From Leptolyngbya sp. FACHB-321 (lineage in GTDB: Bacteria > Cyanobacteriota > Cyanobacteriia > Leptolyngbyales > Leptolyngbyaceae), in contig NZ_JACJPI010000023.1 of the NCBI RefSeq assembly GCF_014695975.1, positions 1 through 36,127 on the forward strand: DNA of 36,127 nucleotides. Direction: 5' to 3'. Of this stretch, positions 3,311-28,130 are shown piece after piece (within the stretch, counting starts at the first letter, position 1; every line of letters begins with the position of its first letter). Position numbers and translations under genes: made by a program. A model generated the notes under the pieces. That model did not search any database. It had not been told where the DNA came from and saw only the letters and a list, made by a program, of their open reading frames with translations.

Positions 3311-3904
3311 TCAGGACCACCCATTTCTGTGCATCACATATTCTAGAATTGTTGCTTCACGAGCTAGAATGCTCGCTTTTACCTTCATGCCTGCTCGGAT
3401 TGGACAAGCGCGACTAGCACCTTGTGTGGCTTCGAGTGAGCTGCGCCGCGTCAAAGAAGTCGTCTTCGGTTGAATCATGACTTCAAAATATTTAGATTGA
3501 GCGGTTTCTTCAGCATTGCGCAGTGCGATCGAAACTTCATCAGATGATAGCGATTGAACTGTTCCTTGTAGCATTCCATAGTTGGAGTAAGGACAGGCAT
3601 TCACCCGCAATTGCACCGCCTGACCCACCGCCACGCTATAGCGATCTTGGGCTGCAATATAAGCTTTGATTCTTAAAGAAGAAGGTATCTGACCTGCGCT
3701 ACGCGTTTTCTGCTGGACAACTGCTCCCTCAGCTTTGATCGTGACGCTGTACTTAACAGTTGCCGCTAGAGCAAACGCAACACTTAAAAGTCCCAGCAAT
3801 ATGAATCCACCGAATTTCAGCGATCGTGCAATGGGAGGAAGAAATTCATCACTGTAAGCAGGTCGCAACCCATTGTATTCTCCATTCAATTGCTCCTGGG
3901 TCAT
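3311..3904 (-). CDS. Short HlyD-family membrane fusion-like protein lacking the hairpin
   Basis: The 197-residue product has one membrane segment (about 31-50, FILLGLLSVAFALAATV). It then passes almost directly into the C-terminal beta-barrel part of HlyD-type adaptors (SLRIKAYIAAQDRYSVAVGQ, AVQLRVNACPYSNYGMLQGT, then FEVMIQP and AGMKVKASILARE). Typical family members are about 400-500 residues with two lipoyl halves and a long coiled-coil hairpin between these blocks. Here residues 62-76 are all that stands in their place. The start codon overlaps the stop of the exporter gene (ATGA, 3901-3904), so the two are translationally coupled. The protein could be a deletion derivative that cannot bridge to an outer-membrane channel, or a genuine mini-adaptor. 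The Cys at 104 (NACPYSNYG) is typical of cyanobacterial members. Confidence 0.72.
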   Translation of the reverse strand: MTQEQLNGEYNGLRPAYSDEFLPPIARSLKFGGFILLGLLSVAFALAATVKYSVTIKAEGAVVQQKTRSAGQIPSSLRIKAYIAAQDRYSVAVGQAVQLRVNACPYSNYGMLQGTVQSLSSDEVSIALRNAEETAQSKYFEVMIQPKTTSLTRRSSLEATQGASRACPIRAGMKVKASILAREATILEYVMHRNGWS

Positions 3905-6084
3905 CGGAGTACTCCATTCATCAACTCAATATTTTTTTCGGCGGAAGGCAAGAATTCTAAATGACTTCCTGGTGTAGAGCGCAAGCGATTGAGTGAGCCT
4001 TGCAGTTTGAGCTTGCCTTGTTCTAAAAACACAATCCACGTTGCGCGATCGATGACTTTGGAACGATGGCTAATTAAGATAGTCGTCTTGCCAGCCCGAT
4101 ATAGCAGGAGACGATCTAGTATTTGCGATTCACTAACTGGATCGAGTCCAGAGGTTGATTCATCTAGAATCAAAATCGGCGGATCACCTAATAAGGCACG
4201 TGCGATCGCGAGTCGTTGCCGTTGCCCTCCAGAAAGATTGGCACCAAACTCACCCAACACTGTTTGGTATTTATCTGGGAGTAGACTGATAAATTGATCG
4301 GCTTCGGTAATGCGGCAAGCTTGCACAATCTGCTCAAAGGTTGCCTGGGGAGCCGTAAGACGAAAGTTTTCTAAGATGGAGCGACTCCAGAAATGGGCAT
4401 CCTGGGGTACTAAGACAACCTGTTGCCGCACACATGAGAGCGGTAGATCTTGCAGATTGTATAAGCCAATCTGTAAGTTGCCCGATTCCACTGGGTAGAG
4501 CCCAGCAATCAGTTTTGCAAGCGTACTCTTGCCGCAGCCTGATTTGCCGATGAGCGCAATCGTTTGCCCGCCTGGGATGGTCAATGAGAAATCTTCTAAT
4601 AGCTCTAGTCGACCTGGATAGTTAAATGTGAGATGGTTACAAACAATATCTGCTGTGGGCGAGAGTGTTACAGAAGGCTTTTTAGAGGCATTGAAATCTT
4701 CAGGAGTGGCTGCAATGACTTCGCTTAAACGCTGCACACCTGTTTGTGCCTGAACCAAAGCATGAATGACTCCAAGTAATGCAGCAATAAATGCGAGAAA
4801 ATTAGTATTCATACTATTAAAAGCGATGAGTTGCCCAATGGTTAGTTCATTCGCAATTACAAATGAACTGCCAAACCAGAGTAAGATGATGCTACTTACA
4901 GCAGAGACTAAACTAGAGAGTGTGCGATTAATTATTCCAATTTGAAGCGTCCGAAATGTTAGATGTGCGAGTCGCCCAAATCGGCTTTGCAATTCATCCC
5001 AAAATTGAGGAGCAGCATTGAGCGTTCTCAGGGTCAGTGCTCCTTTGAACGTTTCGACAAGAACCCCTTGATTTTCTGCTTCCAGCACTAGTAAACTGCG
5101 CGTTTTCTCCTGTAGCAGTGGAACTAGCATGACCGTTGAAAGAATCATGATTACTGCAAGTCCCAAGGCAACTGCTGTCAGTTTTGCACTATAGAGCAAC
5201 ATTAATCCCAGAGCGACGATCGCAATAAATAACTGGCTTGGCAACCCCACAACAATTTGACCAACGAGTTGATTAATTTCCTGAATATCACGCAAGCGGC
5301 TCACAATTTCTCCACTGCGCCGAGTTTCAAAATACTGCAAAGGTAACCGCAACAGTTGCCGACTAAAATCTAGCACTAGCCCCAGTTCTAGACGCTGAGT
5401 AAAGTGGGCAATGAGCAAGGACTGAATGTATCCTAAACTGCTGCTAATGCAGTTCAAAACAATAACCGCGATTGCGACGATCGCGAGCAGCTTCAAGTCT
5501 CCTCGCAGCAACACATCATCGGTGAGAATCTGCACTAGGAACGGAGCCGATAGCGAGAGAATGCCTAAAAAGAGATTCATCACTAGCACTGTTGCAATCA
5601 ACTGGCGATGTTCCCAAGTATTTTTAAGAAAACGATTCCAGCCCCCTGTTGCATCATCGGACTGCGCCAAGAAAAGTTTTAGATCTGGCTCTAGCAGTAA
5701 CATTACTCCATCAGTCCAGCCAGATCTGAGTTCGGGTTGGGAAAGATGGCGAATGCCCACCGCAGGATCGCCAATGACAAATCGCCTGCCGCGCTGCTGG
5801 TACAGCACTACCCAATGGCACCCTTTCCAATGCACGATCGCAGGCAATGGAAATGTTCCGATCGAGCGGAGCGATTCGGGTTGGACTTGAACAGCTCGTG
5901 CTTTGAATCCTAGCGTTTCAGCGCCTCGTTTTAAACCCAAGAGCGTTGTTCCCAACTGTCCTGTCCCAACCACTTCCCGCACATGTGCCAGGGTGAAAGT
6001 TTTGCCGTAAGCTTTGGCGATCGAGGCAAGACAAGCGGCTCCACAGTCTTCCTGGCTATGCTGACGAACGTTGTAGTATTTCAT
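3901..6084 (-). CDS. lanT: Bacteriocin-type ABC exporter with N-terminal C39 peptidase
   Basis: The 727-residue protein starts at MKYYNVRQ (ATG 6082-6084); the frame is open further, but the upstream gene ends at 6095, leaving about 10 bp between them. The C39 peptidase has Gln8, Cys14 (EDCGAAC), His90 (GCHWVVL) and Asp106 (IGDPAVG), a complete catalytic set for cutting after double-glycine leaders. A six-helix transmembrane domain follows (about 150-450). The ATPase has Walker A GKSGCGKST (about 515), signature LSGGQRQRLAIARA (about 615), Walker B ILILDEST (about 637) and switch His LISHRS (about 671). It should cleave the Nif11-type leader at VAGG of the precursor encoded at 7233-7538 and export the core across the inner membrane. 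The downstream HlyD-like gene overlaps it by 4 bp. Confidence 0.93.
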   Translation of the reverse strand: MKYYNVRQHSQEDCGAACLASIAKAYGKTFTLAHVREVVGTGQLGTTLLGLKRGAETLGFKARAVQVQPESLRSIGTFPLPAIVHWKGCHWVVLYQQRGRRFVIGDPAVGIRHLSQPELRSGWTDGVMLLLEPDLKLFLAQSDDATGGWNRFLKNTWEHRQLIATVLVMNLFLGILSLSAPFLVQILTDDVLLRGDLKLLAIVAIAVIVLNCISSSLGYIQSLLIAHFTQRLELGLVLDFSRQLLRLPLQYFETRRSGEIVSRLRDIQEINQLVGQIVVGLPSQLFIAIVALGLMLLYSAKLTAVALGLAVIMILSTVMLVPLLQEKTRSLLVLEAENQGVLVETFKGALTLRTLNAAPQFWDELQSRFGRLAHLTFRTLQIGIINRTLSSLVSAVSSIILLWFGSSFVIANELTIGQLIAFNSMNTNFLAFIAALLGVIHALVQAQTGVQRLSEVIAATPEDFNASKKPSVTLSPTADIVCNHLTFNYPGRLELLEDFSLTIPGGQTIALIGKSGCGKSTLAKLIAGLYPVESGNLQIGLYNLQDLPLSCVRQQVVLVPQDAHFWSRSILENFRLTAPQATFEQIVQACRITEADQFISLLPDKYQTVLGEFGANLSGGQRQRLAIARALLGDPPILILDESTSGLDPVSESQILDRLLLYRAGKTTILISHRSKVIDRATWIVFLEQGKLKLQGSLNRLRSTPGSHLEFLPSAEKNIELMNGVLR

Positions 6085-6094
6085 AGGTTGAAGC

Positions 6095-7138
6095 TCAGGC
6101 GGAAAGGGGGACGTTAGCATCGAACCAATTGTGACCAAAAGCAAGATATGCCTTGGCATCTATCGGATGCTCGGGGTGATAGCTCAATTTAATGTGACTA
6201 ACGCTTCGCCAGAAAATGCTGTGTGCTTTACCCCGCAAGAATAAATCTCCCCACATAAGGTTGTTGGGTGCAGCATCGTTCTGAGGAATGTTTTGAGAGA
6301 AACCAGACCATTGTGCGATCGCAGCTTGTTTCTCCGAGGTGCATAATCCTTGTCCAACAAGATAGTCTAAAAATCGTGGCTGTCTGGGTTGCGGCGAAGG
6401 TTGACGATTAAAACACTCAATGCCAATTTTGGGCAAGATTTGCTCACCGACATCAAGATCAAGAATTGCAATAGAATCGACTTGTTCTAATAGATTTGAA
6501 ATTAATGCTGTAAGGCGATTGGTAGAATCGTGCCAGCCAATCTCGGTGAGATACTCTGGGATTTGGTGAAGCCGAATTCCGCTCACAACAACGCGAATTG
6601 CCTGATTGGGGCGAGATAACATCGCTCCTAAATGTTCAATCCGGGCATTGGTGGGCAAGGCATGGGCACACTGGGTAAGATTTGCCGTAATGCTGGTGGA
6701 AATGGTGTGTTCTGGAAGGCGGTGAGCTAACTCAACGAGCGATCGCGCATCTTGAACGTTATCGCTAAACGATAGAAATAAGCAGGGAATGGGGACTGAT
6801 GCTGGAGGGCGATCGAGATCAAATTCTAACCAAATGTGTTGCAGTTGATCGTAGAGTTCAGAGGTGGGTTGCACCCAGTCTCGACAGAGATTGTGCAGCG
6901 ATCGCCAAGCAGAATGGGCTAGAAACGCTTGCGGTAGCGGCAACTTCGATCGAGGAAATCTGACCAGTAGATCTACAACAGGTTGGGCAGTTCCTAAGCG
7001 TGACTCAAATCCTGCCAGGGAAAAGGGTGGCAGTACTTTGGATAATGCTCGAATATTAGAGAGTGCTGAAGCAGAAACTAACTCCGACGGGAGATAGGGA
7101 ACAACAACATTCAAATAGTCTTCCATAGAGCAGGGCAT
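6095..7138 (-). CDS. Unknown 347-residue protein of the lanthipeptide operon
   Basis: I do not recognise a domain. The protein is soluble-looking, without a signal peptide, membrane segment or cysteine motif. It has a repeated leucine-rich helical character at the N-terminus (LSNIRALSKVLPPFSLAGF) and Pro/Arg-rich patches near residue 260 (QPSPQPRQPRF). The first ATG (7138) is preceded by AAGGGAA at a suitable distance; a second Met (MEDYLNVV, 7126) is an alternative. It lies between the precursor gene (94 bp upstream) and the C39 exporter (about 10 bp downstream), so it is almost certainly transcribed with them. By position it could be a leader-recognition, maturation or self-protection factor, but nothing in its sequence decides this. 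Confidence 0.8.
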   Translation of the reverse strand: MPCSMEDYLNVVVPYLPSELVSASALSNIRALSKVLPPFSLAGFESRLGTAQPVVDLLVRFPRSKLPLPQAFLAHSAWRSLHNLCRDWVQPTSELYDQLQHIWLEFDLDRPPASVPIPCLFLSFSDNVQDARSLVELAHRLPEHTISTSITANLTQCAHALPTNARIEHLGAMLSRPNQAIRVVVSGIRLHQIPEYLTEIGWHDSTNRLTALISNLLEQVDSIAILDLDVGEQILPKIGIECFNRQPSPQPRQPRFLDYLVGQGLCTSEKQAAIAQWSGFSQNIPQNDAAPNNLMWGDLFLRGKAHSIFWRSVSHIKLSYHPEHPIDAKAYLAFGHNWFDANVPLSA

Positions 7139-7232: not shown

Positions 7233-7538
7233 CTAGTTTTCGCGGCACGGTCCAAACACAGTCGTCCAAGTAGTCCCAATTGTGCCAATGACATTTGCAC
7301 CTTGCGCTCCTCCCGCAACTGCTTCTAGCTCCTCGTCGCAAAGATCTCGCACTTCTACCGCTTGACCCACAGAAAGCTGCTCTTCTACATCAGCAGTGGT
7401 GAAGCTGTATCCCTTTTCTGCTCCTAGCTCAACCATGAGTTTTGCAAACCCTACCTGGTCAGTCGAAACCTTGAGTTGCTCTTGAATCGTCGAATCGCGC
7501 AGAATGACTTGATTGAATTGTTCTAGGGTCTTTGCCAT
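7233..7538 (-). CDS. Lanthipeptide precursor with Nif11-type leader and double-Gly site
   Basis: The start is the ATG at 7536-7538 (MAKTLEQFNQVILRD), preceded by AAGGAG about 8 bp upstream; the longer open frame to 7643 lacks such a site. The 101-residue peptide has a Nif11-like leader (residues 1-77, TLEQFNQVIL...LVELGAEKGYSFT...) ending in the double-Gly motif ELEAVAGG. The predicted 24-residue core (78-101) is AQGANVIGTIGTTWTTVFGP followed by CREN. It has five Thr (core positions 9, 12, 13, 15, 16), one Cys (core 21) and no Ser, so at most one methyllanthionine ring can form. The leader also has one Cys (67). The modifying enzyme is LanM at 7795-11076; the C39 exporter should cut after Gly77. 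Only one precursor is seen. Confidence 0.88.
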   Translation of the reverse strand: MAKTLEQFNQVILRDSTIQEQLKVSTDQVGFAKLMVELGAEKGYSFTTADVEEQLSVGQAVEVRDLCDEELEAVAGGAQGANVIGTIGTTWTTVFGPCREN

Positions 7539-7734
7539 GATGAAACTCCTTGTACAGAATGTGTGTAAGTGAATATCGAAACGTTTGAGTTGCAAATAGT
7601 TTTTGTCTGTTGCATAACCTCTTGGCTTCGATGCTTTTAACAATAGAGAAGGAAAGGGAAGAACTAGAGGAGATGATTCAGTTAAAAAGAGTAGTTCTAG
7701 GGGGAGGCAATAGGCTACAAAAGCGCTGCTACAA

Positions 7735-7772
7735 TAGAAAACCCGAATAGCGTTGCTATTCGGGTCATTTTA
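7735..7772 (-). terminator. Terminator hairpin after lanM
   Basis: Read on the minus strand, ACCCGAATAGC pairs perfectly with GCTATTCGGGT (11 bp, loop AAC, 7741-7765) and is followed by a short T-run (TTTTC). It lies 30-50 bp past the lanM stop codon (7795). The precursor gene downstream therefore probably has its own promoter or depends on read-through. The plus-strand reading is also followed by CATTTT, so it may act in both directions. Confidence 0.7.
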
Positions 7773-7794
7773 AGAAATGCTATCTTGATTGAGT

Positions 7795-10700
7795 TCACTG
7801 CCACAGTAGCACTGATGGTAATGCTTCTGGATTTACTAAGCGCAACATCTGGTAGCCAATCCCAGCCGTTCCCTGGAAGAAGCCAGGATTAAACATCGTT
7901 GGCAAATCTAAAAATAGTTGATAGCCACCAGCTTGCTCTGATTTTGAGATTGTCCAAGCTGCCTGTTGTTTAGCTTTCTCTTTCCAGTTCGATCGAACAT
8001 TGAGTTGTTCAGCTAGCAATAGTGCTTCAATTCGACCAAAATTGCCACAGCAAAGGTGATCAATTTCCTGTAGATAGTTCATTGTCGTTTCTAGTGCAAT
8101 GCTAATCTCTTGCTGTGCCTCATCCCGTTCTAAATCGGTTTCTAGCATCAATAAGCTTCCCATTCGAGCCAATCCAATTCCAGGAGCGCCATGACACCAA
8201 CTCGTCATGAAGCTGGGCTGATTATGCCGTAGATCTGCCCAGTTTCCCACCTGTGTGGAGAAGTGATGCCGCTCGTATGCTATCCCTTCTTGGGCAGCCT
8301 CAAAATAGCAACGATTTTGAGTGACGCGATAAAGCCTTAGCAGAGCATAGGTAATGCCTGCCGCTCCATGAGAAAAGCCAGTCAACGGTGTTTCACTAAT
8401 TGTTTTCCAGCTTTTAGGCAAACCATTGATGCTAACTTGATGTATGAGTAGATGCTGACCACAGTCTTTTGCTACTGCTAAAACTTTCGGATCGCTATTG
8501 GCCTCATATAGTGTGAGCAATCCCAGAATTGCGCCAGCCGCACCTCCAAGGATGTCTAGTTGATGATCCGTTGCGATTAGTTCTGGAGTGATATAGCCCG
8601 CAATCCGCTCTGCATCTTCTAATAGCGTCGGTTCTTGCAAGAATTGGCTGATCCGAACCAAGGCGTAAATCAAAGACCCTAAACCCGTTGCGCCGCCTAT
8701 CCCTAAGCTGTTTGCAACTCTTTGAGAAAGCTCAATATCGGAATGATGCACCCACGATCGCAAAGATCCTAGTGCGCCGAGTGCCAAAGAACGATACTGG
8801 GACCGTCCTGTGATTAAACTCATTGCTGCCAAAAATAGGGCAATTCCGCTCCTGCCATCGTACAGCGTGTCCCCTAGGGGACGGAACTGAAATCGCTCGA
8901 CTTCAGGCAAATAGGTCAGAGCAATCCAACCTGCACTGCCATCCGGTTCGAGCAGAGCTGCGTTCTCGATTTTCGCTGCGATCGCTTCTGCCTCACGTAA
9001 AAACAATTCAGCCGTAGGCGGTGCGATAGTGTCGATCGTCTGGATTGGGGACGTGAGAGCGCGATTCGGAACACGGGCAATTCGTGCACAAAAGGTACCC
9101 TGAATCAATGTCACTTGTCGCGCCAGATCAATCTCACTAAGTTGCTGAAACTGCGCTTCTACCCCGCTAAAGCTGGAATGCTGAAAGTAGCGTTCCACAA
9201 TGGTTTGCGAACCCGATATTAACGCAATGTCTGCTGCTTCTACTTCAAAATGAGGAATATCAAGCTGTTCTAATGATTGTCTTTCTGCCTGTAGAATTGC
9301 CCATGCTTTTGGCTTAGTCGGTGATACTAAAAAAGCTCGGCTGAGAACATCTAGTTCAATACTGCGATCGATGCCGTTACGGAGAAACTGAGGAGACAGC
9401 GACTTTTGCTTAATTGCATCGTAGATTTGAGTCGCACGGAAGACGAATCTTACCCGTTGGTGTTTTAAGTTGATCAAAGGCGAACCACTATCGAGCAATG
9501 CACCTCGATGCCGTAGCAAGAAACGATACATTTTCTCAAACCCTTCGAGCAATTGGGGAAGATAATCGTTAGGGGAGAGCGGTGTCCCATTTAAGACTGG
9601 CACATTTGCTTCTAGCGGCAAGGTAACAGATTCATACACTAGCCGCATATCATCGGTATTAATTGCCTTCCAGCAAGGCATCTTTCGCGGTGCCTGTTGG
9701 GGGTCAACGCTTCCCAAACCGCTAATATCAAAAGCAACTCGATTTTGCTTATTGAGTTCCCATTGAGGCAGGAGTCCTGTTCGCAGCACCGAATCCCAAA
9801 ACTGTTGATGACTAGCATTCTGAACATTAGTTGAGTCCCAGCCTTCAACCAAGGGATCGGCAGTAGGATGCATCAATGCTTCCATATCAACTAAAACGAG
9901 ATGTTCTCCACTCGCGATCAAGTTGCCGTAATGACAATCGGTCGTTCGTAAGACATAGAGCAAACAGAGCAACATTCCTGATCGCTGATAAAACCGCTCG
10001 GCAGCAAATTCGTCTTGGCACGGTAACTGCTCTACATATTCGACCCAACCATGCGTTTTGCGATCGAGAACGCGCAGCACTTTAAACGGAAGCAATTCGC
10101 TCTGTTCATTGCACCAGACGAGAAGGTGTTGATAGGCAACTTCCAATCCTAAATCTCTGGGTTTATAGATTAGTTTTAATCCTGAATCAAACGTTAGTGC
10201 GATCACTGTTCGCATTTGATGGTGGGCATCAGAAAGCGACAGTTCCACTTGCGTCACTTGTTTAAGGGGTACCGAATCTGCAAAGGTATGTTGCAAATCA
10301 GCCAGATCGGTATTGAGATGCTGAAGAAAATCCGCGATCGCACCCACCCAAAAATCAACCGTCGTCGCAACCAATCTTCCTAGGACTGGGTAGGTTTGGA
10401 ACAGGGTAAACAGCCCATCCGATAACTGTTTTTCAATGAATGCGCGGTAATAAGTTGTACTGGGTTGTTCTGGAAGCGTGATGAATCGATTTAGTAAGGT
10501 CTGTCCGAGTGGGCGAAAGCGAGAAAACTCAGCATCCAAGGTAGGAGTGCAAAGTGCGATCAGTTGTTGCAAAAATTGGCGTTCTATCTGGAGATAAGCA
10601 TTTTCAGATAAGACCTGCACATCGGTTGGGTTCAACTGTGCCCATAGCTTTTGACGAGCAACTAAAAGAACAGGTAGCAAAAGATCTTCAAACGGGAGCG

Positions 10701-11076
10701 GTTTTTCTGGCTCTATAGGAAGTGCAACGGTTTTACGATCGTTCAAGCTTTGTTCTAAAGCCATTTGGATGATTGCTTGGAATGTTTCTATCCAAGCCGG
10801 AAGGCACTCAGGTAATAGGCTTACTGGATCACCCGTTGGAGTGCTTGTGGATGCTGCCAAAACAGCCTTTACAGTTGCGCTGTCTAAGCCATCCCATGCT
10901 AACCGTTTCTCAAATTTTTCCCAGTTTCCTTGAGCGGCGGTTTCACACCACCGTTGTAAAATTGCATTGGACTGCTGAGCATGATGTTCTAGGGGAGGCT
11001 GCCCCCAAGAATGATTGAGTTGCTCCCATAAAGAACTTGCCTGAAACGCAATTTGCATTAAGTCAGCATGATTCAC
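7795..11076 (-). CDS. lanM: Class II lanthipeptide synthetase LanM, ProcM-like CCG type
   Basis: The 1093-residue bifunctional enzyme has a DUF4135 dehydratase half with kinase-like residues: KPRDLGLE (about 307), TDCHYGNL (about 380) and LVLVDMEALMHP. Its C-terminal LanC-like cyclase half has GFSHGAAGI (about 902), SWCHGAPGIG (about 960) and LCCGNFGR (about 1009). The last motif replaces the usual Cys-His-Gly zinc ligand motif with Cys-Cys-Gly, giving three Cys ligands as described for ProcM and relatives. The start is GTG (11074-11076), chosen because AAGGAG lies 7 bp upstream. It should phosphorylate and eliminate Thr of the core, then add the Cys thiol. It is followed by a terminator (7741-7765), then the precursor, all in the same direction. 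Length and motifs are normal. Confidence 0.95.
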   Translation of the reverse strand: MNHADLMQIAFQASSLWEQLNHSWGQPPLEHHAQQSNAILQRWCETAAQGNWEKFEKRLAWDGLDSATVKAVLAASTSTPTGDPVSLLPECLPAWIETFQAIIQMALEQSLNDRKTVALPIEPEKPLPFEDLLLPVLLVARQKLWAQLNPTDVQVLSENAYLQIERQFLQQLIALCTPTLDAEFSRFRPLGQTLLNRFITLPEQPSTTYYRAFIEKQLSDGLFTLFQTYPVLGRLVATTVDFWVGAIADFLQHLNTDLADLQHTFADSVPLKQVTQVELSLSDAHHQMRTVIALTFDSGLKLIYKPRDLGLEVAYQHLLVWCNEQSELLPFKVLRVLDRKTHGWVEYVEQLPCQDEFAAERFYQRSGMLLCLLYVLRTTDCHYGNLIASGEHLVLVDMEALMHPTADPLVEGWDSTNVQNASHQQFWDSVLRTGLLPQWELNKQNRVAFDISGLGSVDPQQAPRKMPCWKAINTDDMRLVYESVTLPLEANVPVLNGTPLSPNDYLPQLLEGFEKMYRFLLRHRGALLDSGSPLINLKHQRVRFVFRATQIYDAIKQKSLSPQFLRNGIDRSIELDVLSRAFLVSPTKPKAWAILQAERQSLEQLDIPHFEVEAADIALISGSQTIVERYFQHSSFSGVEAQFQQLSEIDLARQVTLIQGTFCARIARVPNRALTSPIQTIDTIAPPTAELFLREAEAIAAKIENAALLEPDGSAGWIALTYLPEVERFQFRPLGDTLYDGRSGIALFLAAMSLITGRSQYRSLALGALGSLRSWVHHSDIELSQRVANSLGIGGATGLGSLIYALVRISQFLQEPTLLEDAERIAGYITPELIATDHQLDILGGAAGAILGLLTLYEANSDPKVLAVAKDCGQHLLIHQVSINGLPKSWKTISETPLTGFSHGAAGITYALLRLYRVTQNRCYFEAAQEGIAYERHHFSTQVGNWADLRHNQPSFMTSWCHGAPGIGLARMGSLLMLETDLERDEAQQEISIALETTMNYLQEIDHLCCGNFGRIEALLLAEQLNVRSNWKEKAKQQAAWTISKSEQAGGYQLFLDLPTMFNPGFFQGTAGIGYQMLRLVNPEALPSVLLWQ

Positions 11077-11401
11077 TACGGTACTCCTTGGAGAAAATGA
11101 ATGCTGACAGATTAGCGCTAGATCAGGGAAAAGTCGGGGTGATTGATTAGGGTGGAATCAGAGTTTAGATGTCACTCAATGTTTCGCCAGCAGGAAAAAA
11201 CTTGGAAAGAGCCATTACTTTTCGTTTTCTCAAATTAATTTTCGTGCTGTTTGAGAAGCTAAAAGCTGCGTTTATTTTTTAGGTAAAAGTGATACAGATG
11301 GATTCAGCAGATCTAAAGATCTCAAATTAGCTTCCGTAAATTTTCAGTTATTTGTCTCAAATATCGCTTTAAAGGGGCGATGATCGTTCCGTTCAAACTA
11401 C
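11077..11401. promoter_or_regulatory. Intergenic region upstream of lanM, probable promoter region
   Basis: This 325-bp AT-rich gap separates lanM from the upstream CheY-like gene and must hold the lanM promoter if the two are not cotranscribed. I see the ribosome binding site AAGGAG next to the GTG start. A pair of AGATCT palindromes two bases apart (11309-11322) could be a protein site. AAGTCGGGG (near 11130) recurs near 11945 and, inverted, near 13562. No unambiguous -35/-10 pair stands out. Confidence 0.4.
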
Positions 11402-11776
11402 TTAATGCCAAGTCAAAGCATCAATAATCTGTTGGGCAAGGGTAAGCGGACGAAAGGGTTTCGTGAAAACTGCTGCAACGTCTAAATCATGAAAATTGTA
11501 CTGCTCTGACGCTTGCACTTTAGCAGTCATCAGAATTACGGGAATCGATCGAGTTTCAGGTTGTTGCTTGAGATGTTGTAAAGTAGCACGACCATCCATG
11601 TTCGGCATCATCAGATCGAGCAGAATCGCATCGGGGTGATATTGAGCGGCGATCGCAATTCCTTCCGCTCCAGAACTAGCCGTGAGAACCTCCCAACCCG
11701 CTCCCATCTGTAGACCGAGAGTTGCGATCGCTCGTACATCTTCTTCGTCATCCACAATCAAAATTTGCTTCAGCAT
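11402..11776 (-). CDS. CheY-like single-domain response regulator
   Basis: The 124-residue receiver domain has the acidic pair Asp9/Asp10 (ILIVDDEEDV), the phosphoacceptor Asp54 (AILLDLMMPNMDG), the conserved Thr (ILMTAK) and the KPF Lys near the end. There is no output domain, so it must act through protein contacts. It lies 190 bp downstream of the REC-PAS histidine kinase gene on the same strand, which makes that kinase its likely partner. The start ATG is the first in the frame and matches the family start (MxKxILIVDDE). Confidence 0.9.
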   Translation of the reverse strand: MLKQILIVDDEEDVRAIATLGLQMGAGWEVLTASSGAEGIAIAAQYHPDAILLDLMMPNMDGRATLQHLKQQPETRSIPVILMTAKVQASEQYNFHDLDVAAVFTKPFRPLTLAQQIIDALTWH

Positions 11777-11966
11777 CGCAATTCGCTTAAGACCTAATAA
11801 GTAGGAAGCCCTAATCTCATGTCAGCAGGAGTCGGAGGCGTTACCTTCAGGCAAGGGTTACCTTTTTCACCCCCAGGCAACTATCTTCAGTTTAATTCAG
11901 TTCCTCTCCTTAACTGACAGGGTAGCGTTGAATCGGGGAGAAGTCGGGGAAACACGGTTGAGTGAA

Positions 11967-13445
11967 TTAAGTGTTAAGCGGCAATTCAATATAGAATGTG
12001 CTGCCCTGCTTGACGGTGCTTTCTACCCAAATTCTGCCACCATGTTGTTCGATAATGTTACGACAAATGCTTAGTCCCAATCCGGTTCCGCCTTTTTGGC
12101 GGGCATCAGAGGTATCTACCTGTTGAAATCGCTCAAAGATAGTCTGGATCTGATGAGAGGGAATACCTCGCCCTTGGTCGCACACACTAATACAGACACT
12201 TGAAGTCTGACCTGAACTGCAAGCCTGCATTTGAACGGTTGTTTGAGCGGGTGAGAACTTAATGGCATTACTTAGAAGATTGGTCAAGGCTTGCATAATG
12301 CGATCGGGATCAGCATTGAGCAAAATTGATACTGGTTCTGTACTCAATTGAATTTCGGAGCGATCAGCCATTGCTTGCATTTCTTCAGTTGCCTGAATCA
12401 TCAAGTCAGCAAGATTGCACGATCGCCGATTCATTGTAATTTTGCCAGAGCGAATCCGTTCGAGGTCGAGAATGTCATTGATTAGACGGATCAAGCGTTC
12501 TGCATTTTTTACGCCGATACTAAGAACTTGCTGCCCTTGCTCAGTTAAGCTGCCTAACTGCCCACTGCTGAGTAAATCAAGCGATCCCATCATTGAGGTT
12601 AAAGGCGTGCGTAGCTCGTGACTGACTAAGGAAATAAATTCGTTCTCAAGACGTTTACGCTCAGTAATGTCGTTTGCAATTAGTAAAGCGTAAGTTGTTC
12701 CGTTCAGCTCAATACGATCGAAGGATAGCAAAATACTTTTGACACTGCCGGAGTGGGTGAGCAGTTCAAATTCTAAGTTATGGAAGGTTTCAGTTGTTTG
12801 AAGACGACGCAGAAAAGTCGCTGAATCGTGACCCAGATGTAGCTGTGTAATGGAATTGCCGATAACTTGATCTCGTGTGTAACCACTAATGCTGAGAAAA
12901 CTAGGATTGACTTCCATTAATTGCCCTTCGGAAACGGTCACGATCGCAATGGGATTAGGGCTATGTTGAAAAATGGTTGCAAATTTCTCCTCTGCGTGTT
13001 TGCGTTCACGAATTTCTTGCTGAAGTTGTTCGTTTTGCAATTGCAGTTGGCTCTGGAGCCGTCTCAACGTGAGATGAGTTTCAATTCGAGCCAGAACCTC
13101 TTCGATCTGAAATGGCTTTGTAATGTAATCGACACCGCCTGCTTGAAATGCCTTTACTTTGTCGCTCACTGCTTCTAAAGCACTGATAAAAATGATGGGA
13201 ATCTCACGGGTGCGATCGTCAGCTTTAAGATGGTGGCAAACCTCGTAGCCGCTCATCTGCGGCATATTGACATCGAGCAGGATTAAATCCGGCGGCATCA
13301 CTTGGGCACCTCGAATGCCTGTCGAACCCTTCGTAACGCTGCGAACCTTGTAGCCGTGTTTAATGAGCAGGACCGATAGTAGATTGAGATTTTCCGGCGT
13401 ATCGTCAATAACCAGGATGTCGGCTTTTGGTGTAGGCTCAGGCAT
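11967..13445 (-). CDS. Hybrid REC-PAS sensor histidine kinase
   Basis: The 492-residue soluble protein has an N-terminal receiver domain (about 8-125; VIDDTPENL, phospho-Asp in LILLDVNMPQMSG, ITKPF), a short coiled coil (about 128-155), a PAS domain (about 158-270), and a HisKA domain with the phospho-His in SLVSHELRTP (about 276). A HATPase_c domain follows, with the N-box LTNLLSNAIKFSP and the G2 box GTGLGLSI. There is no membrane segment, so it senses an internal signal or takes phosphate through its own receiver. The downstream CheY-like gene is the likely target. The genes lie just upstream of lanM in the same direction, but a regulatory link is only positional. Confidence 0.93.
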   Translation of the reverse strand: MPEPTPKADILVIDDTPENLNLLSVLLIKHGYKVRSVTKGSTGIRGAQVMPPDLILLDVNMPQMSGYEVCHHLKADDRTREIPIIFISALEAVSDKVKAFQAGGVDYITKPFQIEEVLARIETHLTLRRLQSQLQLQNEQLQQEIRERKHAEEKFATIFQHSPNPIAIVTVSEGQLMEVNPSFLSISGYTRDQVIGNSITQLHLGHDSATFLRRLQTTETFHNLEFELLTHSGSVKSILLSFDRIELNGTTYALLIANDITERKRLENEFISLVSHELRTPLTSMMGSLDLLSSGQLGSLTEQGQQVLSIGVKNAERLIRLINDILDLERIRSGKITMNRRSCNLADLMIQATEEMQAMADRSEIQLSTEPVSILLNADPDRIMQALTNLLSNAIKFSPAQTTVQMQACSSGQTSSVCISVCDQGRGIPSHQIQTIFERFQQVDTSDARQKGGTGLGLSICRNIIEQHGGRIWVESTVKQGSTFYIELPLNT

Positions 13446-13624
13446 TGCAGAATTTCATGGGAACTCTCACCAGATTTTAAGACGATATCACCAGTATTTA
13501 AAGTAACCTCAGCAAAAAAAGGATTTCCCCGATTGATGAGCGAAACGGGTTTGGAACTCCCCGACTTCTCCTCGATCGTTGCCTACTGTAAGGGACATCA
13601 GTTAACCAGGAATGAGAAGTTACT

Positions 13625-14098
13625 ATGTTTCATCACCTTTCAGTCGCCGTGGATCACCCGCTGCATGTTGCTAATGTTCTGGCAGAAGTGTTGCAGGGCT
13701 GTTGCTTTCCCTTTCCTCCCCACGAAGGAAGTTATATCGTCATCGTTGATGATGACTTTGGAACCGGGATCGAGCTTTATCCGGCTGATACTCAGTTGAT
13801 TCCAGGGCTAGATCAAGTCGGCTTTTCTTCAGGAAATACTCCAACGTTTACGTCTGTTCATGCTGCGCTCTCGGTTACAGTCACGCAAGAACAAATTGTA
13901 CAAATTGCTGATCGTGAGGGATGGCTGGTGCGATTGTGCGATCGCGGTCCCTTTAAAGTGATCGAATTTTGGGTGGAAAACAAATTCATGCTCGAATTGC
14001 TCACCCCCGCTATGGCAAAGGAATACCTACAATTCGCTCAGCCTGGTAGCTATGAAGCGTTCCTGAATCAGGCTGCTCCTCAACTTGTTGAAGCTTAA
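13625..14098 (+). CDS. VOC/glyoxalase-like small cyanobacterial protein, function unknown
   Basis: The 157-residue protein begins MFHHLSVAVDHPLHVANVLA, a pattern like the first beta-alpha unit of the vicinal oxygen chelate fold. It continues with FPPHEGSYIVIVDDDFGTGI and a C-terminal half with WVENKFMLELLTP. I do not see a full set of metal ligands, so enzymatic activity is uncertain. The ATG at 13625 has purine-rich sequence (AGGAATGAGAAG) upstream. The gene lies 24 bp before the methyltransferase start, on the same strand, so the two are probably cotranscribed. VOC membership is an inference from the N-terminus only. Confidence 0.75.
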   Translation: MFHHLSVAVDHPLHVANVLAEVLQGCCFPFPPHEGSYIVIVDDDFGTGIELYPADTQLIPGLDQVGFSSGNTPTFTSVHAALSVTVTQEQIVQIADREGWLVRLCDRGPFKVIEFWVENKFMLELLTPAMAKEYLQFAQPGSYEAFLNQAAPQLVEA

Positions 14099-14122
14099 AA
14101 ATTAACTGGAGTGAAAAGAATC

Positions 14123-15127
14123 ATGATGACGATGGAAAGATTAGAAGTTGCTCCCCAAGAGACGATGCTGAGTTTGATTGGTGGCTTTTGGATTGCTCGA
14201 TCGATTTATCTAGCAGCTCAATTAGGCGTTGCTGATTTGTTTGACGATCAACCGAAAACAATTGCCCAACTTGCAAGCGAAACCAACACCGATCCGCGAT
14301 CGCTCTATCGGCTCCTACGCGCCTTGGGCAGTGTCGGCATCTTTACGGAAGTCTCAGATCAATGTTTTGCCCTGACTCCGTTGGGTGTAACGCTTAAGAG
14401 CGATAGTCCTGGTTCAATGCGCTATGCGGCGATGGCGCAAATCGGAGACGACCATTCGCTGGGTTGGAGCAACGGGTTGCACAGCCTAAAAACTGGTGAA
14501 ATTGCGTTTGATACCGCAGCAGGAATGCCGCTTTGGGATTACTATGCTCAACATCCTGAAGCGGGGAAGGTGTTCTCACAATCGATGACCAGTATGGGAA
14601 CTGCGATCGCACAAGCAGTCGCTGCTAGCTATGACTTTTCTGAGTTTAATACGATCGTGGATGTGGGTGGAGCGCAAGGAAGCTTAATTTCTACAATTTT
14701 GCAGGCAAATCCCCATCTCAACGGCATTTTGTTTGACTTACCTGAAATCATTGCCAATGTCCAGGTTGATCAGAAGATTCAATCTGTTGCCGGAAATTTC
14801 TTTGAGTCTGTGCCAACGGGCGGCGATGCTTACTTGATGCGATGGATTATTCATGATTGGGATGATGAAAAGTCCTCGATCATACTAAGAAATTGCCATC
14901 AAGCAATGCCTGAGCACGGCAAGCTGCTGTTGATCGAAAGCATTATTCCACCCGGAAATGAACCCTCTCCAGCAAAGTTCATTGATGTTATTATGCTATT
15001 GATGACAGGCGGACGAGAACGTACTGAGGAAGAGTATCGATCGTTATTGCGATCGAATGGGTTTAAACTGACGCGCGTGGTTTCGACACCGTCCATGCTC
15101 AGCGTTATTGAAGCTGTAAAACTCTAA
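14123..15127 (+). CDS. SAM-dependent O-methyltransferase (hydroxyneurosporene/ASMT type)
   Basis: The 334-residue protein has an N-terminal helical dimerisation domain (IGGFWIARSIYLAAQLGVAD) with a winged-helix segment (IAQLASETNTDPRSLYRLLR). The Rossmann domain has motif I VDVGGAQGSLI (about 180), DLPEII (acidic loop) and RWIIHDWDDEKS with the His used as general base in plant-type O-methyltransferases. The start is the ATG at 14123, with TGGAG about 11 bp upstream; a GTG at 14111 in the same frame lies inside that site. It would transfer a methyl group from SAM to a hydroxyl of a small molecule; the substrate cannot be read from the sequence. It follows the VOC-like gene closely. Confidence 0.9.
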   Translation: MMTMERLEVAPQETMLSLIGGFWIARSIYLAAQLGVADLFDDQPKTIAQLASETNTDPRSLYRLLRALGSVGIFTEVSDQCFALTPLGVTLKSDSPGSMRYAAMAQIGDDHSLGWSNGLHSLKTGEIAFDTAAGMPLWDYYAQHPEAGKVFSQSMTSMGTAIAQAVAASYDFSEFNTIVDVGGAQGSLISTILQANPHLNGILFDLPEIIANVQVDQKIQSVAGNFFESVPTGGDAYLMRWIIHDWDDEKSSIILRNCHQAMPEHGKLLLIESIIPPGNEPSPAKFIDVIMLLMTGGRERTEEEYRSLLRSNGFKLTRVVSTPSMLSVIEAVKL

Positions 15128-15155
15128 TCTTTTGCATTCATCTGAAAAAAGAGCT

Positions 15156-16322
15156 ATGAACTTGTATCGCTCTCTGATGTTATTGACTGTCACACTCGGT
15201 TTAGGACTGAGTGTGTCTCCAACCATTCCTGTTTCCGCCCAATCTTCTCAAGGCGAAGCACAAAAGATTGAGCAATCTGTGGAACCCCTGCCAAATGTAG
15301 GTAGGATTCGTTTTCGCAACTTAACTTTCAAACGCTCAGAAACGCGATCGCTGCTGTCGTTAGCAGCAGCGATTCGTCGAGAGTTCCCAACAGGTAAGAC
15401 CCGCTATCTATACAATCGGATTGATTTAGATGGCGATGGACGCGAGGACGTAGTTGCCTATCTCACTTCCTCATGTGGCACAGGTGGCTGTTCGATGCTC
15501 ATTTTGAGAGCGATGGGCAATGGTTACAGTTTGATTTCGCGACATACAATCGTCAATAATCCAGTCGTCGTTAGCACCACTAAAACAAATGGTTGGCGAG
15601 ACATTGTTCTATATGTTGCGGGTGGAGGTACGAAGCCCAGTTACAACATTCTAAAATTTGATGGCTCTGCCTATCCGCCCAATCCTTCAACGGCTCCAGA
15701 ATTACCGCCTGGAACAATCGTGAGCGGAACTGCGATCATCGCAGATAAAATCTCTCCAGAAGTCGGCATTGTGCTTGATGCGTCTACTAAAAACCAGACT
15801 GGCGGTTTAAGTCCAAGCCAGCAAGCAACGCTAAAATCTTTGGGAATTGCTATCGCAGTTCCAACCGTTCCAGCCGGTTACACGGTCAGTAAAGTCGAGG
15901 TGAAGCCTTGTCCTGCGAACGCACCTCGATCAGAAAAGGGTGTATGTCGATTTGGTCCACAATATGGCATTGTTTATCGCGATGTTAAGCAAGATCGTTG
16001 TTTTGCGATCGAGGCGACGGGCGGCGGTGTGGGTGGAGTCCCAGCCGAGTATGAATCGAAAATTAACATTCCTCTACTTGGTGAAACGTCGATGCTGTTT
16101 GGTTCACAGAATGGCGAATTCAAAACCCCTTCTGCCCAGCAGCTTAACTCGCCCCAGCCGAATTTAATTTCAGATTGGGCAGGAGTCAGCCCATTTTATC
16201 ACATCGTTGGAGCAGATTTCGTGCGGCAGACTTACTATAAAGGTAACCCAAATTACTGCCACAATACAATTACGCCAAATCAAGCTATTCAGATTGTACA
16301 ATCCCTTTCCTGGCTCCAATAG
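15156..16322 (+). CDS. Secreted protein with signal peptide and Ca-binding-like loop
   Basis: From the ATG at 15156 (AAAGAG 3-8 bp upstream) the 388-residue product starts with a clear signal peptide (MNLYRSLMLLTVTLGLGLSV...VSAQ, cleavage near 29). An EF-hand/FG-GAP-like loop DLDGDGREDVVAY lies near residue 95, followed by SSCGTGGCSMLIL. The middle has a hydrophobic, Pro-rich linker, and the C-terminal half has paired Cys (CPANAPRSEKGVCRFG). No catalytic motif was recognised; it is probably a periplasmic or secreted cyanobacterial protein of unknown role. It starts 29 bp after the methyltransferase and so may be the last gene of that operon. A TTG start at 15132 is possible but has no binding site. 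Confidence 0.8.
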   Translation: MNLYRSLMLLTVTLGLGLSVSPTIPVSAQSSQGEAQKIEQSVEPLPNVGRIRFRNLTFKRSETRSLLSLAAAIRREFPTGKTRYLYNRIDLDGDGREDVVAYLTSSCGTGGCSMLILRAMGNGYSLISRHTIVNNPVVVSTTKTNGWRDIVLYVAGGGTKPSYNILKFDGSAYPPNPSTAPELPPGTIVSGTAIIADKISPEVGIVLDASTKNQTGGLSPSQQATLKSLGIAIAVPTVPAGYTVSKVEVKPCPANAPRSEKGVCRFGPQYGIVYRDVKQDRCFAIEATGGGVGGVPAEYESKINIPLLGETSMLFGSQNGEFKTPSAQQLNSPQPNLISDWAGVSPFYHIVGADFVRQTYYKGNPNYCHNTITPNQAIQIVQSLSWLQ

Positions 16323-23342: not shown

Positions 23343-24512
23343 CTAAGTGAGCCGCTGTGCTGCCCACTGGTTGAGATCTTGACGGTTGATGGCGGCTGCC
23401 ATCAGATCGGGGAAGCGATCAGGTGTACAAGCAAACGCAGGGATACCCAGAGATGTCATGAATTGAGTGTTGCTATGGTCATAGCAGGGTGCGCCATCAT
23501 CATTAAGTGCCAGCAGGGTGATGAATTGAATTCCTGAAGCAACGAGGCTACTGATGCGCTTTCGCATTTCATCCTGATTACCCCCTTCATACAGGTCACT
23601 AATCAACACCAGAATCGTATCCTGTGGTTGACGAATCAGCCCTTGGCAGTAAGCTAATGCCTGATTAATGTCAGTGCCGCCTCCTAGCTGAGTTCCAAAT
23701 AAAACCTCAACGGGATCTTGCAGCAAGTCAGTCAGGTCAACCACTACCGTGTCAAACACAACCATGTGGGTTTGCACTGCCGGAAGCGACGCCAAGACGG
23801 CACTAAAAATTCCGGCATAAACAACGGAGGTTGCCATTGAACCACTCTGATCCACGCAGAGAATGATGTTTCGCAGGGCAGAACGTTTGCGTCCAAAGCC
23901 GATCCGAGTTTCGGGAATGATGGTGCGGTATTGAGGCTGATAGTGTTTCAGGTTAGCGCGAATCGTGCGATGCCAATCAATTTCATGATGGCGGGGACGA
24001 CGATTCCGAATAGAACGATTGAGGCTACCCAGGATTGCTTGTCGAGTTGGATTTTCAAGTTTACGGATCAGATCTTCAACAACTCGTCTGACCACAATCC
24101 GAGCGGTTTCTTTTGTCTTACCGGGCATTACCCCACTCAGAGACATCAGGTTGGAGACCAGATGCACATCGGGTTCCACTGCCTCTAGCAGTTCTGGTTC
24201 CAATAACATTTGGCGCAGGTTCAGCCGATTCAAGGCATCCTGCTGCATCACTTTTACAACCGAAGTGGGAAAGTAGGTGCGAATGTCACCCAACCAACGC
24301 GCTACTTTAGGAGAGGAAGCCCCCAGTCCACCTTGACGATCGCTATCGTAAAGCGCACTCAACGTCTGGTCGATCGCTTGATCTGCCCCTCCTAAACTAA
24401 AGCCGTCACCTTCCATACCATTGCCGTTGGTTGAACCGCAAATGCCATCCGCTGCCCCACCGAGGATGAGCCGCCAGCGTCTCAATCGTTCTGTTGAAGA
24501 AGAGTCTGTCAT
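23343..24512 (-). CDS. VWA domain protein (CoxE/MoxR-associated type)
   Basis: The 389-residue protein has a helical N-terminal half (RSALRNII precedes the fold) and a von Willebrand A domain. The domain has a complete MIDAS: DQSGS at 221-225, Thr280/Asp281 (GGGTDIN) and Asp306 (LISDLYEGG). VWA proteins of this kind pair with MoxR AAA ATPases to remodel or activate a target protein. It is the last gene of a five-gene minus-strand operon; its ATG overlaps the stop of the DUF5682 gene by 4 bp. The N-terminus has a Gly/Ser-rich loop (GGAADGICGSTNGNGMEGDG). Confidence 0.9.
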   Translation of the reverse strand: MTDSSSTERLRRWRLILGGAADGICGSTNGNGMEGDGFSLGGADQAIDQTLSALYDSDRQGGLGASSPKVARWLGDIRTYFPTSVVKVMQQDALNRLNLRQMLLEPELLEAVEPDVHLVSNLMSLSGVMPGKTKETARIVVRRVVEDLIRKLENPTRQAILGSLNRSIRNRRPRHHEIDWHRTIRANLKHYQPQYRTIIPETRIGFGRKRSALRNIILCVDQSGSMATSVVYAGIFSAVLASLPAVQTHMVVFDTVVVDLTDLLQDPVEVLFGTQLGGGTDINQALAYCQGLIRQPQDTILVLISDLYEGGNQDEMRKRISSLVASGIQFITLLALNDDGAPCYDHSNTQFMTSLGIPAFACTPDRFPDLMAAAINRQDLNQWAAQRLT

Positions 24513-26902: not shown

Positions 26903-26913
26903 GGGGAGTGCCT

Positions 26914-28065: not shown

Positions 28066-28130
28066 GATAATTGCTCTACCGTTGATTTGTTCTGGTTGAT
28101 TGTGTTGCCGACCGATTGACTTCCTACTCC

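Follow-up and report, generated by a model that had tools for sequence, protein, structure and literature searches.

The window analysed here, a stretch of 36,127 nucleotides from Leptolyngbya sp. FACHB-321, carries a lanthipeptide synthetase gene (lanM) next to a small gene for a Nif11-leader precursor, which raises the question of whether this pair belongs to a ProcM-like system serving many substrates, as the initial annotation suggested, or to a pathway dedicated to a single peptide. From sequence comparisons, we consider it probable that the locus running from position 11076 down to 3311 makes a prenylated class II lanthipeptide, which would be leader-guided, Trp-prenylated, closed by one ring and matured by a C39 peptidase (Table 1).

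The LanM starts at a GTG codon preceded by AAGGAG and scored 984 bits against TIGR03897 (cut-off 304) in an NCBIfam scan. It combines a DUF4135 dehydratase and a LanC-like cyclase domain on a single chain, as expected of a class II synthetase. Residue mapping found 10 out of 10 dehydratase-domain residues intact (D283, H285, K305, D380, H382, N385, D397, E399, R547 and T549), together with the cyclase residue H903; the roles of these residues and the CylM numbering are assumed here. The LCCGNFGR motif, which had been read as giving three Cys zinc ligands, indeed does so in the complete protein (C961, C1009 and C1010). The precursor ORF as listed opens at TTG 7643, while its likely start is the ATG at 7538, preceded by AAGGAG. 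Its 77-aa leader matched TIGR03798 (31.8 bits, E 1.3e-7; cut-off 32.3) and Pfam Nif11 (PF07862; 22.3 bits, E 1.6e-4; cut-off 23.8) with significant E-values and scores slightly below both family cut-offs, and it ends in a double-Gly site (VAGG) ahead of a short 24-aa core with five Thr, one Cys and one Trp (Trp91). The gene is real because three near copies exist in two relatives (loci L007 and L046), and chance is no serious explanation for the LanM and its precursor. The description of a Nif11-type leader ending in VAGG beside the LanM was supported, the leader being a near-threshold match to that family, and this peptide was the sole substrate candidate found near the enzyme.

Table 1. Positions of the features of the locus within the window.
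Feature	Position	Strand	Basis or detail
Short HlyD-type adaptor, 197 aa	3311..3904	(-)	Start overlaps exporter stop; TIGR01843 60.7 bits, positions 283-408 of 422 only
C39 peptidase-ABC exporter	3901..6084	(-)	ORF opens at 6159, start 6084 proposed; Peptidase_C39 120 bits, ABC domains
Putative MppC-family peptide prenyltransferase, P0001, 347 aa	6095..7138	(-)	Homology to ORF of apparent mpp cluster
W296-GDL-F300 of P0001	6239..6253	(-)	Aligns with residues 336 and 340 of apparent MppC; candidate counterpart of published W336/F340
Precursor peptide gene, 101 aa	7233..7538	(-)	TIGR03798 and Pfam Nif11 just below cut-off; AAGGAG before ATG; orthologues in L007, L046
Core peptide AQGANVIGTIGTTWTTVFGPCREN, 24 aa	7236..7307	(-)	Trp91 at 7266-7268, Cys98 at 7245-7247
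Nif11-type leader, 77 aa, with L66(X)4L71, ending VAGG (residues 74-77)	7308..7538	(-)	
Terminator-like hairpin between LanM and precursor genes	7740..7766	(-)	12 pairs, 6 GC, then TTCTATT; no regional excess of such hairpins over chance (8 hits, 8.5 expected)
LanM, class II lanthipeptide synthetase, CCG type, 1093 aa	7795..11076	(-)	TIGR03897, DUF4135, LANC_like, active-site residues
LanC-like cyclase domain (LANC_like), LanM residues 733-1091	7804..8880	(-)	Pfam 215 bits
LCCGNFGR with zinc ligands C1009 and C1010	8032..8055	(-)	Residue mapping
Zinc ligand 1, C961, in SWCHGAPG	8194..8196	(-)	Residue mapping
DUF4135 dehydratase domain, LanM residues 229-612	9241..10392	(-)	Pfam 451 bits

The initial annotation had also expected further precursors elsewhere in the genome and proposed a genome-wide search for Nif11 leaders ending in a double-Gly. 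Two such searches yielded no further Nif11 match with a double-Gly core: the genome (97% complete) contains one LanM and two Nif11-leader matches, only one of which, the window precursor, has such a core. The second match above the cut-off (contig C71) was rejected as a precursor, since this 77-aa ORF has no double-Gly core. A search of the genome for a divergent second copy, with the precursor itself (P0003) as query at E <= 10, returned only the query and a chance match with stops. By comparison, 21-53 Nif11-leader matches per genome (E <= 0.001) were present in seven picocyanobacteria-like genomes of family f19, which served as ProcM-type stand-ins on account of their genome size, CCG enzymes and many precursors, ProcM itself being absent from the set. 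The many-substrate signature is absent from this genome, and a ProcM-like combinatorial system was rejected because the whole-genome searches gave no more precursors or LanMs.

The phylogeny of the synthetase separates two parts of the ProcM comparison. We built a tree of 45 LanMs (quick mode, LG+G4) from ORFs of at least 800 aa in the fetched loci, with identical ones removed and LanM places outside fetched loci mostly absent; five of its rows came from the f19 genomes, and the long branches of L108 and L109 are unreliable. Thirty-five rows, 26 labelled CCG and nine with changed ligands, shared one side of a branch with an SH-aLRT of 100, and because the window enzyme is among them, the grouping outside the CCG clade that had been named beforehand as a possible refutation was not seen. 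The ligand labels derive from a text pattern; by residue mapping, L109, labelled as lacking zinc ligands, actually has C, C and H, and L064, labelled CCG, is without the first Cys. Membership of the CCG superclade thus stood, but closeness to ProcM and broad substrate tolerance were not supported. The f19 enzymes formed a branch of their own (length 0.99) and were 32-35% identical to the window LanM, whose nearest studied relative found was an apparent MppM (52% identity). Prochlorosins and their synthetases ProcM/SyncM from picocyanobacteria resemble the window system in the CCG zinc motif and the Nif11-type precursor leaders, and differ from it in the LanM branch, in having tens of precursors rather than one, and in the prenyltransferase-family gene of the window operon.

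That gene, which adjoins those for the LanM and the Nif11 precursor, encodes the 347-aa protein P0001. The initial annotation was silent on it, as it was on the C39 transporter and the short HlyD of the same operon. P0001 is 32% identical over 348 aligned columns (178 bits, E 5e-57) to an ORF in another genome (G398, locus L101), where the homologue lies with a Nif11 precursor ending in VAGG-ACWRWSG, the published MppE core. This cluster also contains a CCG LanM, a Trp halogenase, an ORF whose domain resembles squalene-hopene cyclase, and two UPF0489 ORFs, which can be read as the published mpp arginases, so that its predicted content, from precursor and LanM to UPF0489, halogenase and cyclase-like ORF, fits the published mpp gene list. 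Because of this content, we took the P0001 homologue as MppC. Five other ORFs of L101 were discarded for this role on their domains (UPF0489 in two, amine oxidase/squalene cyclase, Trp halogenase and DUF6445), and a 356-aa ORF without a Pfam match was set aside with Pro336 and Val340. Counted from its GTG, the apparent MppC has Phe340, as does published MppC, and Leu rather than Trp at 336; a start six codons further upstream, which would shift the numbering, is not available in frame.

MppC, published in December 2025, is a lanthipeptide tryptophan prenyltransferase that prefers GPP and holds the leader through the pair W336/F340. It is leader-dependent, the one enzyme of that type characterised in this publication, whereas cyanobactin prenyltransferases act without a leader, and it geranylates only Trp82 of MppE, the His and Tyr replacements of which are not geranylated (PMC12715784). 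In our 20-row family alignment, Phe occupied the 340 column in 8 of 20 rows, and Trp336-type and Phe340-type residues occurred together in three. P0001 retains all 14 positions invariant among 18 other family members and deviates at 2 of the 31 positions common to at least 17 of them. By homology to the apparent MppC it is a member of that family; prenylation is most likely its reaction, with Trp91 as the probable target. When P0001 and its family profiles were compared with Pfam, NCBIfam and the PDB, no above-chance match pointed to a prenyltransferase; PDB searches with profiles of 6 and of 20 family members returned chance matches only, and the viral collection contained no relatives of P0001. 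As no Pfam or NCBIfam entry matched, domain-based mining would overlook P0001 and its relatives. An AlphaFold model built from two sequences (mean pLDDT 35, no strands) was of no confidence and uninformative on an alpha-beta-beta-alpha barrel; five helix-helix-strand-strand repeats were a guess by eye and given no weight as evidence.

Across 386 cyanobacterial genomes, P0001 relatives occurred in 16, LanMs (E <= 1e-30) in 37 and both in 11 (Fisher p 4e-9, or 3e-8 without the window genome, ignoring kinship among genomes and assuming the same 386 for both searches). In 9 of these 11, the two genes lay at most 20 kb apart. This bears on the reading of the locus as an ordinary, promiscuous ProcM-like cluster with scattered extra precursors and an unrelated P0001, which would accommodate the CCG motif and superclade, the Nif11 leader and a core that differs strongly between the window and its relatives. 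We consider that reading highly improbable, since it sits poorly not only with the single LanM and single double-Gly precursor and with the separate f19 branch, but also with a P0001 gene that separates precursor from exporter here as well as in both relatives and belongs to a family that tracks LanM across the phylum.

The window precursor was not matched in 9 of the 16 loci around P0001 relatives. Among 24 precursor ORFs listed beside such relatives, which were chosen by eye with script-cut cores and include near copies but omit at least two further Nif11-like ORFs (one each in L088 and L095), the core contained Trp in 18 and Trp or Tyr in 23. Neighbouring modification enzymes are mixed: L047 is a putative azole cluster with YcaO and SagB genes, L086 encodes a radical SAM/SPASM maturase with the core GNGICWKSR, and in L088 and L091 the LanMs have lost cyclase ligands while the cores are free of Cys and end in KW. 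ORFs of about 600 aa beside the relatives in L049, L088, L090, L091 and L115 were considered as terpene cyclases, which is a guess; they had no Pfam match, and the three scanned had no NCBIfam match. Another P0001 relative was seen on an Azospirillum plasmid.

Some relatives adjoin cores that have Tyr and no Trp (L047, L048 and L095), so Trp need not be the target in every case. P0001 might accordingly keep the family fold but modify a different residue or substrate, as in O-prenylation, or serve mainly as a leader-binding partner, and its two deviations at near-invariant positions would be compatible with this. We regard it as unlikely, given that the 14 invariant positions are kept, that MppE is geranylated only at Trp82 and not at His or Tyr replacements (PMC12715784), and that Trp91 is conserved in four out of four window-lineage cores while neighbouring residues vary.

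These lineage cores come from comparison with the two closest loci. Both (L007 and L046) keep the order LanM, precursor, P0001, C39-ABC and HlyD; their precursors are 76-80% identical to that of the window and the other proteins of the set 81-94%, and their HlyD adaptors are equally short (196-197 aa). The exporter carries the C39 motifs in which the Cys, His and Asp are expected, the roles of these residues being presumed. Between the window and these relatives, core dN was 0.52-0.58 versus 0.05-0.08 for the leader (FACHB-63: about 0.58 and 0.05), and the L007/L046 core reads LQA[SA]YTGGCDGRGWTSLFGWCREN, with two Cys in both relatives, which may allow a second ring, versus one in the window; it also has a second Trp. 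A frameshift was rejected as the origin of the altered core, as codon comparison revealed substitutions, equal lengths and no indel. Fragments of TnpB-type genes (Pfam, NCBIfam) lie near the cluster end. The single Cys, the core divergence and these fragments could indicate a decaying precursor that has lost its first Cys and one ring and yields no active product. We give this little credence: none of the five ORFs is interrupted, the C-terminal WTxxFGxCREN block persists, and the leader and P0001, for which dN/dS was computed (about 0.11-0.20 and 0.10-0.15, respectively), look to be under purifying selection.

In the prenylated-lanthipeptide pathway that we favour, the LanM would bind the 77-aa Nif11 leader, dehydrate a subset of the five Thr residues in the core, and close one methyllanthionine ring from Cys98 to Thr92 or Thr93. 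P0001 would bind the same leader via its structured part and L66(X)4L71, and would prenylate the core, most likely at the sole Trp, Trp91, beside the predicted ring; the window ORFs that were scanned gave no terpene-cyclase match, so the prenyl chain is expected to be linear. Judging from domain content, the C39 domain would then cut after Gly77 and the ABC/HlyD system would export the product. This enzyme set would serve one precursor rather than the many of a ProcM-like system.

A close published parallel to this arrangement is the mpp cluster of Moorena producens (MppE, MppM and MppC; Saha 2025, Wakeel 2025), which shares the 77-aa Nif11 leader with L66/L71, the CCG LanM, the MppC-family enzyme and a Trp-bearing core. 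It differs in a core of 7 instead of 24 aa, in a ring between Cys79 and Ser83 where the window ring is predicted to join Thr and Cys, and in a halogenase, arginases and a terpene-cyclase-like gene, none of which was matched among the window neighbour ORFs scanned; the window operon also has its own C39 exporter, whereas the published mpp transporters are without a peptidase domain. NctPC (Hubrich 2024) is described in passages of a review (PMC13290415) as an alpha-beta-beta-alpha prenyltransferase with low similarity to cyanobactin enzymes that acts on Trp. According to these passages, a terpene cyclase domain forms part of the same fusion protein, which attaches a C20 group in cyclised form, whereas P0001 is a single-domain protein. 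Cyanobactin prenyltransferases (PagF, KgpF and others) likewise prenylate peptides and are said to share a fold family with MppC (PMC12715784), but P0001 has no sequence match to a solved prenyltransferase or Pfam family and is expected to be leader-dependent.

The occurrence in 16 of 386 cyanobacterial genomes, the mixed modification neighbours and the Azospirillum plasmid relative suggest that the family is wider than a lanthipeptide label. We tentatively propose, at slightly less than even confidence, that it comprises general Nif11-leader-guided prenyltransferases working across RiPP chemistries (lanthipeptide, azole, radical SAM and ligand-lost LanM), and that the window lineage, with leader, Trp and C-terminal ring fixed and the first core half free between close species, may combine lipid attachment and diversity generation on one scaffold. 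If the favoured reading of the locus is correct, the cluster would be an added member of the lipidated lanthipeptide group first described in 2024-2025, and a second compact test case for leader-dependent prenylation, whose core differs from that of MppE, whose operon is intact and whose substrate has natural sequence variants.

The Nif11-type precursor encoded beside the LanM in Leptolyngbya sp. FACHB-321 consists of a 77-residue leader with VAGG at its end, followed by a 24-residue core, AQGANVIGTIGTTWTTVFGPCREN, that contains five Thr, one Trp and one Cys. Even though the leader scores slightly below curated cut-offs, we consider the gene real because three near copies exist in two relatives, which upholds the LanM-precursor pairing described in the initial annotation. 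The genes for a 347-aa protein (P0001), a C39 exporter and an HlyD-type adaptor lie 3' of the precursor on the same strand, with short or overlapping junctions among these three. A terminator-like hairpin sits between the LanM and precursor genes, so the precursor may be transcribed on its own; promoter-like matches in the region were below chance (2 vs. 10.8 expected), both on the opposite strand. This gene order is repeated in FACHB-63 (locus L007, genome G021) and in genome G020 (locus L046), with identities of 87–89% for the LanM, 90–93% for the 347-aa protein and 90–94% for the exporter; G020 carries a tandem pair of precursor genes with identical cores. At E ≤ 1e-10, precursor matches occurred in 4 of 388 genomes drawn from the class (the window genome, G020, G021 and, as a distant match, G083); the drawn set also included six further congeners of the window genome, none of them with a match.

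Genes of the lanthipeptide cluster in the window
Feature	Position	Strand	Remarks
HlyD-type adaptor, 197 aa	3311-3904	-	
C39 peptidase-ABC exporter	3901 to about 6084	-	
347-aa protein (P0001)	6095-7138	-	no Pfam or NCBIfam match
Nif11-leader precursor	start most likely ATG 7538	-	
LanM	7795-11076	-	complete; TIGR03897 984 bits

The adaptor aligns to only the last third of its family model and is equally short in both close relatives, vs. 494–498 aa in the more distant clusters L050 and L051. TnpB-type gene fragments lie close to the cluster end (1767-2892). Upstream of the LanM, at 11967-15127, are a response-regulator/histidine-kinase hybrid and a divergent O-methyltransferase; start-matched ORFs, judged by eye, occur at the counterpart in L046, so the cluster site seems common to two genera. 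A row of VWA/CoxE, DUF5682, AAA_5 ATPase and DUF5691 genes (23343-29696) is likely a MoxR-VWA type system unrelated to the lanthipeptide cluster.

Relatives of the 347-aa protein were found in 6 of 42 genomes of the order and 16 of 386 of the phylum. The cluster of one of them, in genome G398, also encodes a Nif11 precursor with C-terminal VAGG-ACWRWSG, whose core is identical letter by letter to that of MppE (ACWRWSG) and whose 77-aa leader equals that of MppE in length, as given in PMC11791876. Also in this cluster are a CCG LanM, a tryptophan halogenase, an ORF whose domain resembles squalene-hopene cyclase, and two UPF0489 ORFs that we read as the published mpp arginases; for these genes, the content agrees with the published mpp list. 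MppC, an alpha-beta-beta-alpha prenyltransferase, depends on the leader when it geranylates MppE at Trp82 (PMC12715784), and from the cluster content the G398 relative is most likely MppC itself. P0001 shares 32% identity with this protein (111/348 aligned positions, 178 bits, E = 5e-57) and retains all 14 positions invariant across 18 other members, as well as 29 of the 31 conserved in at least 17 of these. Residue 340 of the G398 ORF is Phe as in MppC, and residue 336 is Leu vs. Trp in MppC; W296 and F300 of the window protein align to residues 336 and 340 of the G398 ORF, a Trp/Phe pair present in 3 of 20 family rows.

A LanM was present in 11 of the 16 genomes with P0001 relatives vs. 37 of 386 overall (Fisher p 4e-9, a value that ignores kinship of the genomes and treats P0001 and LanM draws as the same 386 genomes), and in 9 of these 11 the two genes were at most 20 kb apart (exceptions G183 and G238). 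Other relatives have different neighbors. At L047 (G015; 8685-15164), a relative and a Nif11 precursor accompany azole-forming genes: YcaO (361 bits), SagB (186 bits) and a methyltransferase. At L086:7207-10066 (G083), the relative (45%) is flanked on one side by a Nif11 precursor whose core is GNGICWKSR and on the other by an ORF resembling radical SAM/SPASM peptide maturases (best NCBIfam match 139 bits, under its cut-off), and the product possibly combines a radical-made crosslink with prenylation. Relatives at L049 and L088-L091 lie beside 2OG-oxygenase and ~600-aa ORFs without catalogued family. The family extends beyond cyanobacteria to an alphaproteobacterium: plasmid pAB510a of Azospirillum sp. 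B510 (L115:7148-16631) carries a relative, a LanM at most 4 kb away (TIGR03897 402 bits, cyclase half weak) and an adjoining 597-aa ORF, likewise without catalogued family, with 42% identity to its L049 counterpart. The window precursor was unmatched at 9 of the 16 fetched loci around P0001 relatives, and a core Trp occurs in 18 of 24 listed precursors (12 ending in KW; the other six belong to L086, mpp and the window lineage). In NctPC, according to the review PMC13290415, a prenyltransferase and a cyclase domain are joined and geranylgeranyl is placed on Trp. The P0001 relative on plasmid pMB07 of Acaryochloris sp. 'Moss Beach' (L116) is broken across several reading frames; next to it are a Nif11 precursor, a methyltransferase and a gene annotated as a radical SAM C-methyltransferase.

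Cyclase zinc ligands were lost in five LanMs, those of L027 (G207), L033 (G406), L035 (G159), L102 (G071) and L091:14413-17811 (G149), where the first Cys is changed and LCWG replaces LCCG; dehydratase residues were intact in the four that were aligned, and all five genomes contain P0001 relatives. The 11 listed Nif11 cores of G159 and G149 terminate in KW and are Cys-free; the G406 cores contain a Cys. The LanMs of L032 (G183) and L034 (G131) retain the CCG ligands and have several mapped dehydratase residues altered. L008:8408-13249 (UBA11371) holds a CCG LanM (43%) and, beside it, an ORF of 288 aa that has two stretches resembling nitrile hydratase and a tail rich in Pro and containing Cys; the locus also has a Transglut_core3 ORF of the kind known from McjB of lasso peptides.

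The three-Cys zinc site attributed to the window LanM is present as C961, C1009 and C1010, within SWCHGAPG and LCCGNFGR, and the ten dehydratase-domain positions mapped from CylM by alignment, as well as the cyclase His, are all kept. Its assignment to the CCG clade also held: in a 45-LanM tree, a branch with SH-aLRT 100 separates 26 CCG-labelled and nine changed-ligand rows from ten mostly CHG rows. ProcM and SyncM belong to marine picocyanobacteria, and as stand-ins for ProcM, itself outside the tree set, we used LanMs of the f19 genomes (2.5–3.0 Mb, taken as marine picocyanobacteria). Inside the CCG side, five f19 LanMs group apart with a single Mycetohabitans enzyme (branch 0.99), and the window LanM falls elsewhere, in a 14-row set holding the apparent MppM, which speaks against the proposed likeness to ProcM. 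Nor did the further Nif11 precursors suspected elsewhere in the genome emerge: TIGR03798 matches (E ≤ 0.001) numbered 2 in the window genome, 4 in G020, 2 in G021 and 2–8 in six other searched genomes, vs. 21, 22, 29, 38, 38, 38 and 53 in seven f19 genomes. In a survey of marine Synechococcus clusters, every LanM found is reported to have CCG (PMC10783134). Taken with the tree placement and precursor counts, this means that CCG alone is no proof of a prochlorosin-like system, and the sequence data lend no support to broad substrate tolerance of the window LanM.

Between the window and FACHB-63 precursors, 7 of 77 leader and 13 of 24 core residues differ, the core changes affecting 10 of 13 N-terminal vs. 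3 of 11 C-terminal residues. By rough values from few sites, the core had a dN of 0.58 and a dS of 0.70, the leader a dN of 0.046 and a dS of 0.42; against the two G020 copies, dN was 0.52 in the core and 0.07–0.08 in the leader, and core dN between FACHB-63 and G020 was 0.06. W-T-x-x-F-G-x-C-R-E-N is invariant in the cores of the window and its relatives. In the relatives, the variable half of the core carries Ser/Thr residues and a further Cys, so two rings would be possible there, vs. one in the window peptide.

Gene content, homology and residue conservation are consistent with a pathway in which the LanM would bind the leader, dehydrate Thr and form a Thr92/93-Cys98 ring, as its intact active-site residues suggest. 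The MppC-type enzyme would recognize the same leader via its structured part and L66/L71 and transfer a prenyl group to Trp91, and the C39 exporter would cleave at Gly77 and then export the product. Among the texts searched, only PMC12715784 brings together prenylated lanthipeptides and Nif11, and those on lanthipeptide prenylation, Leptolyngbya lanthipeptides and mpp genes yielded no description of this cluster. We place the window cluster, as a probable member, with the prenylated lanthipeptides, a kind already known but very young.
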